DNA from: Desulfobotulus pelophilus
GTDB lineage: Bacteria > Desulfobacterota > Desulfobacteria > Desulfobacterales > ASO4-4
Direction of reading: 5' to 3'
Assembly (NCBI RefSeq): GCF_026155325.1
Contig: NZ_JAPFPW010000024.1
Location: forward strand, 1-35,881
Length of the DNA: 35,881 nucleotides
Both the position numbers and the translations under genes were made by a program. The notes under the pieces are model-generated. The model was not told the DNA's origin and did not search any database. It saw nothing but the letters and a program-made list of their open reading frames with translations. Shown in pieces: positions 24,939 to 33,889 of the stretch (its first letter is position 1; each line of letters opens with the position of its first letter).

Positions 24939-25676
24939 TCAGAAGAGGAAAGGCGGCCTCTGTTTTCGTAAGCGTTTTTTATTATGTTTCCAAGATTCCT
25001 TCATATTTTTTGATTGACCTGGAGATTTGTTTTCACCTTCGCTATGCAAAAGAATGCTGGCTGGAGCGGAAAGAGCATGGACTGCAGGTGTGGTGATTTT
25101 TTTACCGGGCTGTTTTGTTTGAGGGGACACTGGAGGGCCGGAGATGGCTTCTGCCGGGATGGCGTCTGCTACAAAAAGATGTGTACCTGCGGCATAAAAA
25201 ATCACCCCTGAAGCGAGGGCTCTGAATACATGAATTTCAATGTGAATGGGGTTTGAATCCTTTCTTTTTCCCATGCGTAAGGCCAGCTCCTTGTCTTGGG
25301 TAAAAAGAATAGGGGCGTTAGTGGAAGAGCACAGACCTTTTTGAGAAACATGAGACCAGGCTTTACTGCGGATATACAGATGAAGTAACTTAGGAAGTTT
25401 AGTCACAGGCTGGAGGGAGGGGTCAAAGGAGCGTGCTGTTGCTCGGATTTTCTTATCCTCGACCTGAATGGGTGCGGCGGTGATGCTGCGGCTGATGTCC
25501 ATAAGATCTGCTTCGTGAATGGATGGAAGCTCTGGGTCTTCGCTGAAAACCTGAAGAAGGCTTGTTATTTTTACCCAACCATGGGCATCCGGCAGCAGCC
25601 CATGGGCATCCGGGTGCCTGCCGAGAAGTGTTTCGATTGTTTTTGCAAGTGTTTTCAGTTTTTTGTCTCTTTGCAT
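24939..25676 (-). CDS. Divergent KptA/Tpt1-like protein, likely inactive
   Basis: This 245-residue protein has the backbone of RNA 2'-phosphotransferase (KptA/Tpt1), which uses NAD+ to remove 2'-phosphates from RNA. Landmarks align in order: GRHPDAHGLLPDAHGWVKI (19-37), an IRA at 77-79, LPKLLHLYIRSKAW (94-107), KGL (113-115), ALRMGKRKD (132-140), and SGVIFYAAGTHLFVADAIP (156-174). Key catalytic positions look changed: LRHxP becomes LGRHP, the QGHS after IRA is absent, and YHGT is replaced by HLYI. The C-terminal 60 residues are a basic, low-complexity extension not seen in KptA. GAGG lies before ATG 25676. It may have become an RNA-binding or ADP-ribosyl-binding protein. The similarity is by eye and needs a profile search. 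Confidence 0.6.
   Translation of the reverse strand: MQRDKKLKTLAKTIETLLGRHPDAHGLLPDAHGWVKITSLLQVFSEDPELPSIHEADLMDISRSITAAPIQVEDKKIRATARSFDPSLQPVTKLPKLLHLYIRSKAWSHVSQKGLCSSTNAPILFTQDKELALRMGKRKDSNPIHIEIHVFRALASGVIFYAAGTHLFVADAIPAEAISGPPVSPQTKQPGKKITTPAVHALSAPASILLHSEGENKSPGQSKNMKESWKHNKKRLRKQRPPFLF
25579..25613 (-). repeat. 21-bp-period tandem repeat in the KptA-like gene
   Basis: The 14-bp word CCATGGGCATCCGG occurs at 25579-25592 and again at 25600-25613, encoding PDAHG twice, seven residues apart. The spacing equals that of the normal KptA segment, so it is probably drift toward similar codons rather than an insertion. Confidence 0.6.
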
Positions 25677-28723: not shown

Positions 28724-30499
28724 GTGACTCGTCCTTCCTATGTGGTTGGTATCGACCTTGGAACATCCAATACGGTTGTGGCTTATGCTTCTCTGACCGA
28801 AGACTTGGAGCATACACCGGACTTTCATATCCTGGAGATACCTCAAATGGCAGGTCTTGGTGTGGTGGAAAAATCCACCATCCTTCCTTCATTTCTTTAT
28901 CTGCCGGAACAAAGGGAGGCAGAACAGATGAAGCTTCCCTGGGGCACAGCAAACCCTGTTGTGGGGCTTTATGCCAGAGACCGTGGAGCGGAGGTTCCTG
29001 GAAGGCAGATCGCAAGCAGTAAATCATGGCTATGCACCGATCTGGTGGACAGGGGGGGTGGTGTTTTGCCATGGGATTCACAGGATATTGAGTCTGAGAG
29101 GCGCCTTTCTCCGGTGGTAGCCTCATCCATGATTCTGCATCATGTGAAAGATGCCTGGAATTATCATTTTCGGAGTCAGGGAGAGAACTTTTTGCTGGAA
29201 AATCAGGAGATTTTTCTTACCGTTCCAGCATCCTTTGATGCCGTGGCCAGGGATCTGACAGTCAGGGCTGCCCAGGAAGCCGGTCTGCTGAAGCTTGTTT
29301 TACTGGAAGAGCCGCAGGCTGCTTTTTATGCGTGGATAGCTAAGCGGAGAAATGCCTGGCGGGATCATGTCAAAGCCGGTGATACGGTTCTGGTCTGTGA
29401 TGTGGGCGGAGGTACCAGTGACTTTTCCCTGATCCGGGTAAAAGATGCTGACGGGAGACTGGAGCTGGAGCGGATCGCCGTTGGCAACCATCTTTTGGTA
29501 GGGGGAGATAACATGGATTTAACCCTTGCCTACCATGTGGCCGCAGGGCTTGCTGCTAAAAACAAGGCTTTGGATGCTTGGCAGATGCGGGGACTAATTC
29601 AGCGTTCCCGTCAGGTCAAGGAAAGTCTCCTGAAGGATCCAGGCAAAGAGAGCTTGTCCGTTACCATTGCAGGACGGGGCAGCGGGCTGATTGCCGGAAC
29701 CATTAAGTCGGAGGTTCGCTATGATGAAGTTGAGAAGCTCATTATGACAGGTTTTTTTCCGGAATGTGACAGGGATGCACGACCTGTGCAGCCTTCTGGA
29801 TCCGGACTCAGCGAATTTGGTCTCGGGTATGAGGCGGACCCGGCCATAACACGGCATCTCGCTGCTTTTCTGGCTGAAACGGGGGAAGAGCCTACGGCTG
29901 TCCTTTTTAACGGTGGCGTGATGAAGCCATCCCTGCTCAGAGAGAGGCTGTGCCGGATTGTAGCCTCCTGGCAGAATGGCAAAGAAGTCCGTGAGCTGGA
30001 GAATGAAGCCGGTGATCTGGCTGTGGCCATGGGTGCAGCTTATTATGGATGGGCAAGGAAGGGGAGGGGAATTCGCATCCGCAGCGGGCTGAGCCGGACC
30101 TACTATATCGGTGTTGCAGCGGCTATGCCTGCAGTTCCCGGTATCCCCATGCCAAAAAAAGCTCTTTGCATAGCTCCTTTTGGCATGGAAGAAGGAAGCG
30201 AAGTCAGCATCAGGGAAAAGATTTATATGCTGAACGTGGGTGTGCCCGTATCCTTTGAGCTTCTAGCATCCACAAGTCGGCGGGAAGATACTCCGGGCGA
30301 AGTGGTGGAAGACTGGCAGGGTGCGCTTGTACCCGTTGCTCGTATTGAAACCCGTCTGGACGGTGGGGACGAAAAGCGTATTCCCGTAACCCTTGCCGTA
30401 CGTGTTACTGAAGTGGGAACGCTTGAATTTTTCTGTGTATCCGAAAAAGATGGACGAAGCTGGGATCTGGCGTTTCAGATTCGGGAAGGTTTTTCCTGA
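28724..30499 (+). CDS. Hsp70-family protein, first of a tandem pair
   Basis: This is a 591-residue DnaK-like ATPase that differs from canonical DnaK. The phosphate-1 motif GIDLGTSNTVVAYASL (9-24), the phosphate-2 DVGGGTSDFSLI (226-237) and the adenosine-site FNGGVMKPSLLRERL are intact, so ATP binding is expected. The SSKSWLCTDLVDR at about 98-110 probably holds the equivalent of the DnaK catalytic lysine (K100). After about residue 460 a short beta-rich region replaces the DnaK substrate-binding domain, and the EEVD/lid region is absent. This resembles the YegD-like 'Hsp70 family' proteins, whose function is unknown. Start: GTG 28724 has a strong AAAGGAG 6 nt upstream; a frame opening 43 codons earlier has no site. 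The paralogue follows after 187 nt. Confidence 0.88.
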   Translation: MTRPSYVVGIDLGTSNTVVAYASLTEDLEHTPDFHILEIPQMAGLGVVEKSTILPSFLYLPEQREAEQMKLPWGTANPVVGLYARDRGAEVPGRQIASSKSWLCTDLVDRGGGVLPWDSQDIESERRLSPVVASSMILHHVKDAWNYHFRSQGENFLLENQEIFLTVPASFDAVARDLTVRAAQEAGLLKLVLLEEPQAAFYAWIAKRRNAWRDHVKAGDTVLVCDVGGGTSDFSLIRVKDADGRLELERIAVGNHLLVGGDNMDLTLAYHVAAGLAAKNKALDAWQMRGLIQRSRQVKESLLKDPGKESLSVTIAGRGSGLIAGTIKSEVRYDEVEKLIMTGFFPECDRDARPVQPSGSGLSEFGLGYEADPAITRHLAAFLAETGEEPTAVLFNGGVMKPSLLRERLCRIVASWQNGKEVRELENEAGDLAVAMGAAYYGWARKGRGIRIRSGLSRTYYIGVAAAMPAVPGIPMPKKALCIAPFGMEEGSEVSIREKIYMLNVGVPVSFELLASTSRREDTPGEVVEDWQGALVPVARIETRLDGGDEKRIPVTLAVRVTEVGTLEFFCVSEKDGRSWDLAFQIREGFS

Positions 30500-30686
30500 T
30501 TGGGGAGGAAGGGCGGGTTCTCTTCCCTGTAAGCGGTACTTTAACGATAGTGTTACTCCTGTGGCTGCCGCAAAGAGAGAACATATATCCATATGGTTTC
30601 ACAGAAGCCCTCAATTCATGACTGTAAGCCGTTAGCCGGACTGTGGTTCTGGGCTTTTGCCGTTAACTTCATTTCCAGGATTTTAT

Positions 30687-33461
30687 ATGCAGAACAGCGA
30701 GACTCCTTTTGTGGTTGGGATCGATCTCGGAACAACCAATTCCGCGGTATCCTTTGTGGATCTAAGAAAAAAATCATTTGAAATCAAGAATTTTCCCATT
30801 CAGCAGCTGGCAGGTGCCGGTGTTTTTGCTCCGCATAATGTACTCCCTTCCTTTCTTTATATCCCTGGTACCCATGAAATGGATTCATCCGCAATTCAGC
30901 ACCCATGGCCTAAGTCAACGGATATGTTTGCGGGTCTGTTTGCAAGGGAGTATGGAGGCAAGGTGCCGTCCCGCCTTGTGGTTTCCGCTAAAAGCTGGCT
31001 GTGTCATGACCAGGTGGACAGGCGTGCTCCCATCCTTCCATGGGGAGCACCGGCAGAAATTCCTAAGGTGTCACCGATTGAGGCAACATCACTTTATCTA
31101 TCCCATATTCGTAGTGCGTGGAATACATACCATGCCAAAGATCCGGATCTTTATCTTGAGCATCAGCAAATTACGGTCACGGTCCCTGCATCCTTTGACG
31201 AAGTGGCAAGGGAGATGACCCTTGAAGCAGCAAGGGAAGCCGGTCTGCCGAGGGTCATTCTTCTGGAGGAGCCCCTTGCAGCTTTTTATTCCTGGCTTTT
31301 GCGTCATGAAAAGAACTGGATGGAGCAGATCCGGCCGGGAGAGCTGGTACTTGTCTGTGACATGGGAGGGGGGACAAGCGACTTTACGCTGATATCCTTG
31401 AAAGAGAGCGAGGAAGGGGGAAGTCCGCGTTTTGAACGGATTGCCGTAGGCGATCATCTGATTCTCGGTGGGGATAATGTGGACCTTGCTTTGGCTCGTA
31501 TGATTGAAATGAGGCTGGGAGGTAAGGATATTTCTCTTTCCGGAGACCGCTGGAAGGTTCTCTGTCACCTCTGCCGTGCGGCAAAGGAACGGCTGCTTGA
31601 GGGAGGGCGGGCAAGGGAACGGATTACAATCATGGGGGAAGGCCGGAGACTGATTGGTGATACGGTTTCTGTTTTTCTGGAACAAGAAGAAACGGAAGAA
31701 ATTGTTCTTGAAGGGTTTTTCCCCAGGCTGTCTCCCGATGACCTGAAGCGTGATGCGCCTCCTGTTACGGGCGGTGTTACAGAATTTGGACTTCCATATG
31801 CGGCTGATGCAGCCCTGACTCGGTATCTGGCTGCTTTTCTTTACAGTCACAAGGAAGAAGTCCATCGAAAAATGGATCGTTCCGTCTGTCCTGATCATAT
31901 TCTTTTTAATGGCGGTGCATTGAAACCGCTCAGCATCAGGGAGCGTATCAGGGTCGCCGTTTCCGATCTTTTTAATCTGTCTCCGGATCAGGCTCCCGCA
32001 GAGTTGGAGAATCCTAATCCTGATCTTGCTGTGTCTTTGGGCGCTGCCTACTATGGCCTTGTTAAATACGGGAAGGGTGTACGGGTTGGGAGCGGCAGCC
32101 CCAGGAGTTACTACATGAGTATTGGTGTTGGAGAGCAAAAAAAAGCCTTGTGTCTTGTAGAGCGTGGCCTGGATGAAGGCAGTGTGATTGATCTTCCCCG
32201 GAATATTTTTGAGGTACAGGCAAATCAGCCGGTACAGTTTGATGTGTATGCTTCCAGTTTTCGTTCCGGTGACAGGGCAGGGGATCTGATCAATATTGAT
32301 GAGACCCTTTCTCCTCTTCCACCCCTTCGGACTTTGATCCGGTTTGGCAAGAAGGAAGAGGCTCGGAGTATTCCTGTTCATATGGAAGCGAATTATACGG
32401 AAATGGGATCCCTTGCTCTCTGGTGTCGGTCAGGGATTTCTGATCACAGGTGGCAACTTTCTTTTCAGCTTCGGCAGCCGTATCAGGTCCTTGTTCCAGA
32501 CAACAAGGATATTCTGGATGCTGAGCGAGTTGATGCTGCCGTGTGTGCCGCTCTCATGGCCTTTGATGATACCGGAGAAATTGTAAATCCCGTACGGGAA
32601 ATAGCGGCTATTGTTCTTTTATCCAAGAATCAATGGCCACTGGATCTTTTGAGAAAAATATCCGATGCTTTGCTCTCCGAGCCGGATTTACGTCGTATTT
32701 CACCTGCCCATGAAAGTCGATGGTTGAATCTTCTTGGTTTTTGTCTCAGGCCCGGTACGGGAGATGCTTTTGATGATGAAAGGTTACGGAAGCTATGGCG
32801 TTTTTACAAAGATGGTCTTGTTTTTACCAACAAAACCCAAAATAAAAATGAGTGGTGGATTCTCTGGCGTCGGGTTGCTGCCGGTTTGGGGCCAGGCAGA
32901 CAGCGTCAGATTCTTCAGGATCTTTCTTCCGTACTTTTTACAAAAACAAAGTCAAAAAAAATTATTTTTTCACAGGAATTGGTGGAAATATGGTCTGCCG
33001 TTGCTAATATGGAATTTTTAAGTGTTCAGGATAAAAAAAGATGTTCTGAAGCGTTGCTGCCTCTGCTCCACCCGAGAAAATCTCCTGAGCGTCTCTTCTG
33101 GTCTTTTGCAAGGCTGTGCAGCCGTACCCTTTTATATGGACCGGCGGACAGGGTTTTGCCTCCGGAGATGGTGACCCCTTGGCTGGATACGATTCTTGCT
33201 ATGAACTGGAACGATCCGGAAGCCCTGGCTTCCGTTCTTGTACCCGTAGCCCGGCTGACAGGTGACAGGGTACGGGATTTATCTCCGGATATGCGCAAAA
33301 AAATTGGTAAAAAGCTGGAGAATGTCCGGGGAGATGAAAGCAGAGAAGCACTGGCATGTCTTTACTCCGTGATTCCCATGGAAAGAAAAGAGGAGAAAGA
33401 GATGTTTGGGGAATCTCTGCCGCCTGGATTGCGTCTGTATCGTGATGCAGAAACAGACTGA
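30687..33461 (+). CDS. Hsp70-family protein with long C-terminal extension
   Basis: This 924-residue protein is the second member of the tandem pair. The ATPase core (about 1-500) is closely related to the upstream gene: GIDLGTTNSAVSFVDL (11-26), VSAKSWLCHDQVDRRAP (99-115) and CDMGGGTSDFTLI (224-236) are intact. After a short beta-rich region comes a helical extension of about 320 residues (about 600-924), matching the layout of Hsp70 proteins annotated with DUF3731. I know of such pairs in gammaproteobacteria, often beside a DUF2760 gene, which is not seen here. ATG 30687 has AGGA upstream; an in-frame TTG at 30657 is unlikely. The extension could be a client-binding or partner-binding domain. 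Function is not established. Confidence 0.85.
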   Translation: MQNSETPFVVGIDLGTTNSAVSFVDLRKKSFEIKNFPIQQLAGAGVFAPHNVLPSFLYIPGTHEMDSSAIQHPWPKSTDMFAGLFAREYGGKVPSRLVVSAKSWLCHDQVDRRAPILPWGAPAEIPKVSPIEATSLYLSHIRSAWNTYHAKDPDLYLEHQQITVTVPASFDEVAREMTLEAAREAGLPRVILLEEPLAAFYSWLLRHEKNWMEQIRPGELVLVCDMGGGTSDFTLISLKESEEGGSPRFERIAVGDHLILGGDNVDLALARMIEMRLGGKDISLSGDRWKVLCHLCRAAKERLLEGGRARERITIMGEGRRLIGDTVSVFLEQEETEEIVLEGFFPRLSPDDLKRDAPPVTGGVTEFGLPYAADAALTRYLAAFLYSHKEEVHRKMDRSVCPDHILFNGGALKPLSIRERIRVAVSDLFNLSPDQAPAELENPNPDLAVSLGAAYYGLVKYGKGVRVGSGSPRSYYMSIGVGEQKKALCLVERGLDEGSVIDLPRNIFEVQANQPVQFDVYASSFRSGDRAGDLINIDETLSPLPPLRTLIRFGKKEEARSIPVHMEANYTEMGSLALWCRSGISDHRWQLSFQLRQPYQVLVPDNKDILDAERVDAAVCAALMAFDDTGEIVNPVREIAAIVLLSKNQWPLDLLRKISDALLSEPDLRRISPAHESRWLNLLGFCLRPGTGDAFDDERLRKLWRFYKDGLVFTNKTQNKNEWWILWRRVAAGLGPGRQRQILQDLSSVLFTKTKSKKIIFSQELVEIWSAVANMEFLSVQDKKRCSEALLPLLHPRKSPERLFWSFARLCSRTLLYGPADRVLPPEMVTPWLDTILAMNWNDPEALASVLVPVARLTGDRVRDLSPDMRKKIGKKLENVRGDESREALACLYSVIPMERKEEKEMFGESLPPGLRLYRDAETD

Positions 33462-33514: not shown

Positions 33515-33889
33515 TTGGTAAAAAGGATGTTGTTCTTTCTGCTGGTTCCAGTGGCAATGCTGGGTGGCTGCTCAGCTCACAATACAGAAAATTTTACCCC
33601 GAGCCGTCATCAGCATCCGGTACTGAATTTCTATCAGGGTCCTCTTGATCATCTGCATGCAGTGCGAAGTGGTAAATGCGGCATGTCTCCAAGCTGCTCT
33701 TCTTATGCCGCTCAGTCGTTTCAAAACCGGTCTTTTTTTGATGCGTGGTTTGCATCCTTCGACAGACTATTACGTTGTGGCAGAGATTTGGGTCACCCGA
33801 ATATCCGTTGGGTGCCCGCACCCGGTGGCCCGAAGGTTTTTGACCCGGTGGTGATATTGCGTGAAGATGCCCCCTGCTTACAGAAATAA
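33515..33889 (+). CDS. YidD-domain lipoprotein (putative)
   Basis: This 124-residue protein has a lipoprotein signal peptide: basic start, hydrophobic core and the lipobox MLGGC with C19 as the modified residue. After it, residues 38-90 resemble the YidD family, which aids membrane-protein insertion: NFYQGPLDHLHAVRSGKCGM, then SPSCSSYAAQSFQ and FDRLLRCGRDL, matching the family's YQ...C...P-x-CS-x-YA...LRC pattern (C55, C61, C88). Normal YidD is cytoplasmic-side and has no signal peptide, so an exported, lipid-anchored form is unusual. The start is TTG 33515, preceded by GGAAGGAG at 33501-33508; ATG 33527 would cut the signal peptide. It lies 17 nt before the ZnuA-like gene, so they are probably cotranscribed. 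It might be a metal-related surface protein rather than an insertion factor. Confidence 0.65.
   Translation: MVKRMLFFLLVPVAMLGGCSAHNTENFTPSRHQHPVLNFYQGPLDHLHAVRSGKCGMSPSCSSYAAQSFQNRSFFDAWFASFDRLLRCGRDLGHPNIRWVPAPGGPKVFDPVVILREDAPCLQK

Follow-up and report, generated by a model that had tools for sequence, protein, structure and literature searches.

The genes for two Hsp70-family proteins, HspA and HspB, and for a protein of the family DUF2760 form a three-gene module. The module is widespread and hardly described, and DUF2760 is a strong third partner of the two Hsp70s. HspA and HspB were read in the window, i.e., the whole stretch of 35,881 nucleotides of Desulfobotulus pelophilus DNA that was analysed (contig NZ_JAPFPW010000024.1), where they are intact ORFs on the same strand. 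HspA (28724..30499, + strand) starts at the GTG at 28724, with AAAGGAG ahead of it, and encodes a 591-aa protein; HspB (30687..33461, + strand) starts at the ATG at 30687 and encodes 924 aa. A sequence-only reading had described two adjacent same-strand Hsp70 genes with intact nucleotide motifs, the second carrying a DUF3731-like extension, and both statements were borne out. Pfam HSP70 matches HspA at 56.5 bits and HspB at 54.3 bits (cut-off 20.6), and the whole DUF3731 model (PF12531) matches the C-terminus of HspB, scoring 263.7 bits (cut-off 25). The two proteins are paralogues that are 40% identical in 608 alignment columns, which take in almost the whole of HspA, and their profiles match each other at E 2e-190. 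PF00012 has five matches in this genome. Besides HspA and HspB they comprise a DnaK of full length, at 908.7 bits, and two weak matches, in frames 351 and 296 codons long. The NCBIfam equivalog model for canonical DnaK was not reached by HspA or HspB (54.8 and 52.6 bits, respectively, cut-off 648). In a tree made by a quick method with SH-aLRT values only, which counts as support only, the genome's own DnaK sits on an extreme branch and HspA and HspB are separate from the other Hsp70s; the HspA proteins, that of the window among them, lie on one side of a branch with an SH-aLRT of 95, and HspB needs two changes. Selenocysteine in HspA was considered and rejected, as the in-frame TGA (three genomes) or TAA (one genome) in the HspA match is the terminal stop, and all four HspA frames with a suspected internal stop (L166, L167, L169 and L171) are open to the C-terminal end. 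A role in anti-phage defence was likewise rejected: PADLOC gave only weak PDC-M61B matches of the ATPase core, at 21.7 and 18.1 bits.

The module was recognized from its distribution in the phylum. Among 297 genomes DUF3731 was found in 40 and DUF2760 in 42, with both in 39 (Fisher p 4.6e-44; the genomes are related, and the matches span 22 family codes). The one genome with DUF3731 and no DUF2760 (G041) is 85% complete and fragmentary, and HspA was not found in it either; the three with DUF2760 and no DUF3731 are an assembly of 740 contigs (G275) and two genomes that are 67% (G042) and 62% (G078) complete. A profile search in 23 of the 40 DUF3731 genomes and a reading of the HspB loci in the other 17 detected HspA in 33. 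In G181 the HspA gene is a frame of only 353 codons. At E values up to 1e-50, HspA was also present in two of the three DUF2760-only genomes (it was absent from G078), and in none of the 46 tested genomes that have neither DUF. The Hsp70 genes thus do not occur together seldom: HspA lies in the HspB locus in 20 of the 33 genomes, namely in the window, in 18 loci where the two are adjacent and in one where they are 3.5 kb apart. In the remaining 13 genomes HspA is away from HspB, and in all 13 it is directly downstream of DUF2760. Overall, the gene immediately upstream of HspA is that for DUF2760 in 32 of the 33 genomes, with gaps of up to 258 bases or an overlap in the 19 loci measured. The exception is the genome of the window itself, where the DUF2760 gene lies on a separate 16.5-kb contig (C31 of G000, also locus L076; 5131-5850, minus strand). 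In six genomes (G134, G204, G269, G228, G248 and G155) HspB and DUF2760 were present but HspA was not found, and two of these, G204 and G269, are single-contig assemblies that are 99-100% complete. The suggestion that HspA and HspB work as a hetero-pair was therefore upheld as regards their frequent company and not as regards an obligate pair; the latter is an incomplete account because of the six genomes without HspA and because HspA keeps closer to DUF2760 (32/33) than to HspB (20/33).

The same arrangement was found beyond the phylum. The wider contig scan was read for the best 80 of 536 loci, which come from named records and are no random sample; 31 of the 80 are relatives (L077-L107), and the other 49, as judged from the shortness and low scores of their matches, are other Hsp70s or ATPases. 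Among the 31 relatives in these best 80 loci, 17 carry DUF2760, HspA and HspB in this order as a same-strand array, counting L090 and L091, in which the contig end cuts HspB. The sources of the arrays in this set include Vibrio, Photobacterium, Burkholderiaceae (among them Caballeronia and Paraburkholderia), Methylococcales, Chromatiaceae, Lentisphaerae, Riflebacteria, Verrucomicrobia and Acidobacteria. Partial arrays in the same best 80 loci are L092, with HspB 7.6 kb away, L078, with HspA-HspB only, L096, with DUF2760-HspB only, and L107, which ends shortly after DUF2760; four more (L093, L094, L099 and L101) have DUF2760-HspA and no HspB in the available stretch. Lone genes in this set are HspA in L105 and HspB in L080, L089, L100 and L103. 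A Cupriavidus locus (L104, 5516-10898) holds the whole DUF2760-HspA-HspB array broken over several frames, by sequencing error or decay. In addition, HspB gave tblastn matches in 11 records of a plasmid collection, several of which are megabase replicons.

Our preferred reading, which we put forward tentatively, is that the module may be a dedicated Hsp70 machine in which HspA and HspB are the ATPase subunits and DUF2760 is a GrpE-like exchange factor that is often membrane-tethered. We infer that such a machine would work as follows. HspA and HspB would bind ATP, and the lidless beta domains of both would grip client segments. The beta domain of DUF2760 would open the nucleotide clefts of HspA and HspB and so reset them; as a GrpE-like nucleotide exchange factor, DUF2760 would also keep the Hsp70s tethered to the inner membrane. 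In HspB, the DUF3731 arm might be a replacement lid, or an adaptor for a client or partner, and HspA might be an auxiliary paralogue that is missing in some lineages. Since HspB and DUF2760 persist in genomes that lack HspA, the core ATPase is probably HspB, with HspA in an auxiliary role; yet no gene keeps closer to DUF2760 than HspA does. More cautiously still, the module could be a second self-contained Hsp70 machine of bacteria, with two lidless paralogues and its own GrpE-type protein, DUF2760, fixed to the membrane in many lineages and with client release confined there.

The membrane part of this reading draws on hydrophobic stretches in DUF2760. A hydropathy window was run over 42 DUF2760 proteins, made up of 21 from the phylum (from 21 of its 42 DUF2760 genomes) and 21 of 24 from the named loci; three named-locus proteins whose N-termini carry long extensions were excluded from the DUF2760 alignment. 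Hydrophobic stretches were present in 32 of the 42, as two stretches in 23 proteins, one in eight and three in one. All 21 of the phylum sample, including that of the genome of the window, have two, and helices and a small beta domain come after them. Because 10 of the 42 have none, a membrane tether is not general.

The GrpE part draws on structure, GrpE being built of a long helix, short helices and a C-terminal beta wing. A model of the DUF2760 protein of L077 (pLDDT 79.1, pTM 0.42) is helical at its N-terminus and again at 124-182, and has six short strands at 196-255; its confident last strand is the conserved C-terminal strand of the family, with the consensus A-P-A-E-V-E-L. When the model was searched with Foldseek against 350,542 PDB chains, the first match was Thermus thermophilus GrpE (3a6m_B, E 0.043, probability 0.69). 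The match is weak, with TM scores of 0.21/0.30 and an rmsd of 26.7, and the next match has an E value of 0.56 and a probability of 0.11. Six GrpE entries are among the 50 listed for the model in VIA, at Z 3.7-4.5. Two are compact and take in the last helix and the beta domain, i.e., 9bls_C (76 residues, rmsd 5.7, Z 4.3) and 3a6m_A (74 residues, rmsd 6.4, Z 3.8). The 9blt entry covers the N-terminal helix, 1-52, only, and 1dkg, 9a81 and 4ani have rmsd values of 12-33. Unrelated chains score as high in VIA, the first row being a viral polymerase subunit at Z 4.7, and the beta domain of DUF2760 is matched by rows of the FIP200 claw as well, at Z 2.8-3.1. None of the GrpE matches to the predicted structure is significant alone; they deserve notice since the searches were blind to the gene neighbourhood, which points to Hsp70.

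Assignment of DUF2760 to GrpE by sequence was negative in every test. Six hhalign runs of DUF2760 against a GrpE profile gave P values of 0.6, 0.6, 0.22, 0.79, 0.45 and 0.8; the profile was built from 18 of 27 GrpE loci, and the other nine, second GrpE copies among them, were left out. A separate profile alignment was no better than shuffles, of which 106/200 and 325/600 were as good. Pfam GrpE matched none of 21 DUF2760 proteins at E up to 10, where the HMMER filters drop most matches above 0.1, and the Pfam scan of the same number of proteins found no J domain. Canonical GrpE was present in 20 of 20 genomes tested, so that a further exchange factor is not strictly needed. We use "GrpE-like" for DUF2760 as a hypothesis suggested by the model and not as a classification.

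A rival explanation is that HspA and HspB regulate each other, in the style of Hsp110-Hsp70 or Ssz1-Ssb, one of them serving the other as exchange factor or allosteric partner, with DUF2760 only a membrane anchor, adaptor or client. This is doubtful in our view, though well worth weighing. A paralogous pair with 40% identity, found together in 33 of 40 genomes and in one locus in 20, would suit mutual regulation, and a lidless beta domain recalls Ssz1; on the other hand, HspB occurs without HspA in the six genomes that keep DUF2760, and the structure search that was blind to the neighbourhood put an Hsp70 exchange factor first, weakly, for DUF2760. The eukaryotic systems themselves are partial likenesses. 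The fungal Ssb-Ssz1-Zuo1 system also has two Hsp70s, one of them atypical, together with a third, tethering protein, but Zuo1 is a J-protein at the ribosome, whereas no J domain was found in the 21 DUF2760 proteins. The Hsp110-Hsp70 pair likewise consists of two Hsp70-family members of which one is enlarged, and Sse1 is among the PDB fold matches of HspB; in contrast, the present module is bacterial and the enlargement is DUF3731. Compared with DnaK-DnaJ-GrpE, the module shares the Hsp70 ATPase motifs and a predicted beta substrate domain, and its third protein bears a faint likeness to GrpE; it differs in having two lidless paralogues, no LLL linker, a DUF3731 arm and a partner that often has hydrophobic stretches.

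The ATPase site looks intact in both HspA and HspB, as judged from sequence alignment. A nucleotide-binding domain of the Hsp70 superfamily, with its phosphate loops and catalytic Lys, Glu, Asp and Thr, was indicated by Pfam, by the alignment with DnaK and, for HspB, by structural matches at Z > 30, which place it at about residues 6-465 (30702..32081, + strand). The EEP, DxGGGTxD and NGG motifs of both proteins align with their DnaK counterparts. The S-x-KSWLC segment, read earlier as an oddity shared by the two proteins, is indeed present in both, as SSKSWLC in HspA (29015..29035, + strand) and SAKSWLC in HspB (30984..31004, + strand). In the family alignment its lysine, the putative catalytic one, is paired with that of the GVKRLIG segment of the genome's own DnaK, which we take to be the catalytic Lys70. 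By this alignment S-x-KSWLC is the catalytic-lysine segment, as in DnaK, and no separate extra motif. S-x-K-S-W-L is constant in 20 of 20 HspA proteins of relatives, with the final C in 18 of 20; SAKSWLC is constant in 28 of 28 HspB proteins of the phylum sample. The final C is not general, because it was kept in 11 of 21 HspB proteins of the wider set.

Both proteins had been read as lacking a substrate domain of DnaK type, a claim that holds for the lid and does not hold for the beta domain. A model of HspB (21-row alignment, mean pLDDT 85.4, pTM 0.83) has nine strands at residues 474-593 and helices only from 612 to 907. It aligns with ATP-bound BiP (5e84) over 468 residues at an rmsd of 3.8 A and Z 33.8, with the BiP chain followed up to 528, and with DnaK (7kru) over 468 residues at 5.3 A and Z 33.9. 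The alignment with DnaK and BiP extends to HspB residue 596, where the beta substrate domain ends; the PDB rows cover residues 6-595, i.e., the model without the DUF3731 arm. HspB is thus predicted to consist of a nucleotide-binding domain and a DnaK-like beta substrate domain (about residues 470-596; 32094..32474, + strand), followed by DUF3731 (32700..33437, + strand), which is all-helical in the model (by DSSP) and stands in place of the lid. DUF3731 itself is no DnaK substrate domain, while the region ahead of it resembles one. In HspA a beta substrate-like domain (30071..30487, + strand) is put forward from homology, the stretch being aligned to the beta domain of HspB, and there is no helical lid, since the protein ends at 591 directly after that stretch. 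The LLL interdomain linker is absent: the genome's own DnaK has DVLLLDVTPLS where HspB has RVGSGSPRSYY, in a part where the alignment is uncertain, and no run of three leucines occurs in the linker stretch of HspA or HspB. The earlier suggestion of a specialised chaperone or ATP-driven switch gains support from the apparently intact ATPase motifs together with the predicted retention of the beta substrate domain.

Another rival explanation is that HspA and HspB are no chaperones and instead, like MreB, form a scaffold or switch of the actin/Hsp70 superfamily that is driven by ATP and binds through the DUF3731 arm. MreB_Mbl of Pfam does match HspA and HspB at 25.8 and 27.8 bits (cut-off 27), and both proteins are far from DnaK (54.8 and 52.6 against 648 bits), but HSP70 scores higher and the PDB matches listed for the HspB model are Hsp70s, many of them extending into the beta substrate domain. 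MreB is not known to have a beta substrate domain. We consider the MreB-like scaffold unlikely.

Published traces of the module are few. Pfam has DUF2760 and DUF3731 as domains of unknown function, and in the open literature, which leaves most subscription journals outside, no paper on DUF3731, DUF2760 or PF12531 was found. None of the terms sought occurs in a review of bacterial Hsp70s (PMC8215388), nor do "membrane-anchored", "transmembrane" or "DUF" in a 2025 review of GrpE (PMC12987570), and the titles returned by a broader search named no such bacterial Hsp70 system. In Vibrio cholerae, VC1373 and VC1374 are annotated as DnaK-related in two papers (PMC5816637, PMC9201469), one of which has the unit VC1373-1375 in a table of biofilm-repressed genes (PMC9201469), and another has the VC1375 promoter activated by HapR (PMC10328515). 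By analogy with the Vibrio hibernica array (L088), we infer that VC1373, VC1374 and VC1375 are candidates for HspB, HspA and DUF2760, respectively. Possible members are also a carbonylated DnaK-related protein of Photobacterium (PMC3706606) and a differentially expressed DnaK-related protein of Thiodictyon (PMC6413534). Myxococcus xanthus MXAN_5323, a possible HspB, is described as a protein of 925 aa with an NBD-only domain match, distant from DnaK; its deletion reportedly slowed the onset of growth and reduced survival after exposure to hydrogen peroxide, like four other hsp70 deletions, whereas neither heat, cold nor high osmotic pressure brought out a phenotype (PMC8265645). The peroxide phenotype shared by this possible HspB with other hsp70 deletions is what one would look for if HspA and HspB were just ordinary paralogues of DnaK, redundant with it in general stress responses and not part of a dedicated machine, but their separate place in the quick tree, their different architecture and the near-perfect DUF2760 linkage make this the least probable explanation, and a very unlikely one. 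If DUF2760 is indeed the exchange factor of a dedicated machine, two DUFs and many entries called "Hsp70 family protein" would gain a joint, testable role, and bacteria would possess, alongside DnaK, a further Hsp70 system in which each machine has two Hsp70s and a cofactor that is often held at the membrane.

The other neighbours of the two Hsp70 genes in the window did not prove to be partners. Downstream of HspB and on the same strand, Pfam identified two proteins, one of the YidD family, whose start looks like that of a lipoprotein, and one of the ZnuA family. The genes had been said to run into a lipoprotein gene and a metal-binding protein gene; the shared strand is as described, but the link is not conserved, and an operon with these downstream genes was rejected because they do not recur in the 759 ORFs that flank 68 loci. 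Of the clusters present in at least four of these loci, only that of HspA itself holds a neighbour from the window. The YidD-like, ZnuA-like, PHP, Mur ligase and aminotransferase neighbours were not recurrent around HspB in the 68 loci. The YidD-family gene (33515-33889) has an LGGC N-terminus and scores 39.8 bits with NCBIfam YidD (cut-off 40). Elsewhere in the window, 24939-25676 on the minus strand encodes an RNA 2'-phosphotransferase of the Tpt1/KptA family (Pfam) with an extra C-terminal stretch, which scores 48.7 bits against an NCBIfam equivalog cut-off of 231. Further recurrent clusters around the 68 loci were one in 12 loci with mixed strands and several in 4-5 loci. A DUF3592 gene was found directly behind HspB in seven loci (L056, L058, L059, L067, L068, L071 and L073), all of other lineages in which HspA is elsewhere or was not found. 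In six of the seven it overlaps the HspB stop codon by four bases, and DUF3592 is possibly a fourth member of the module in those lineages.
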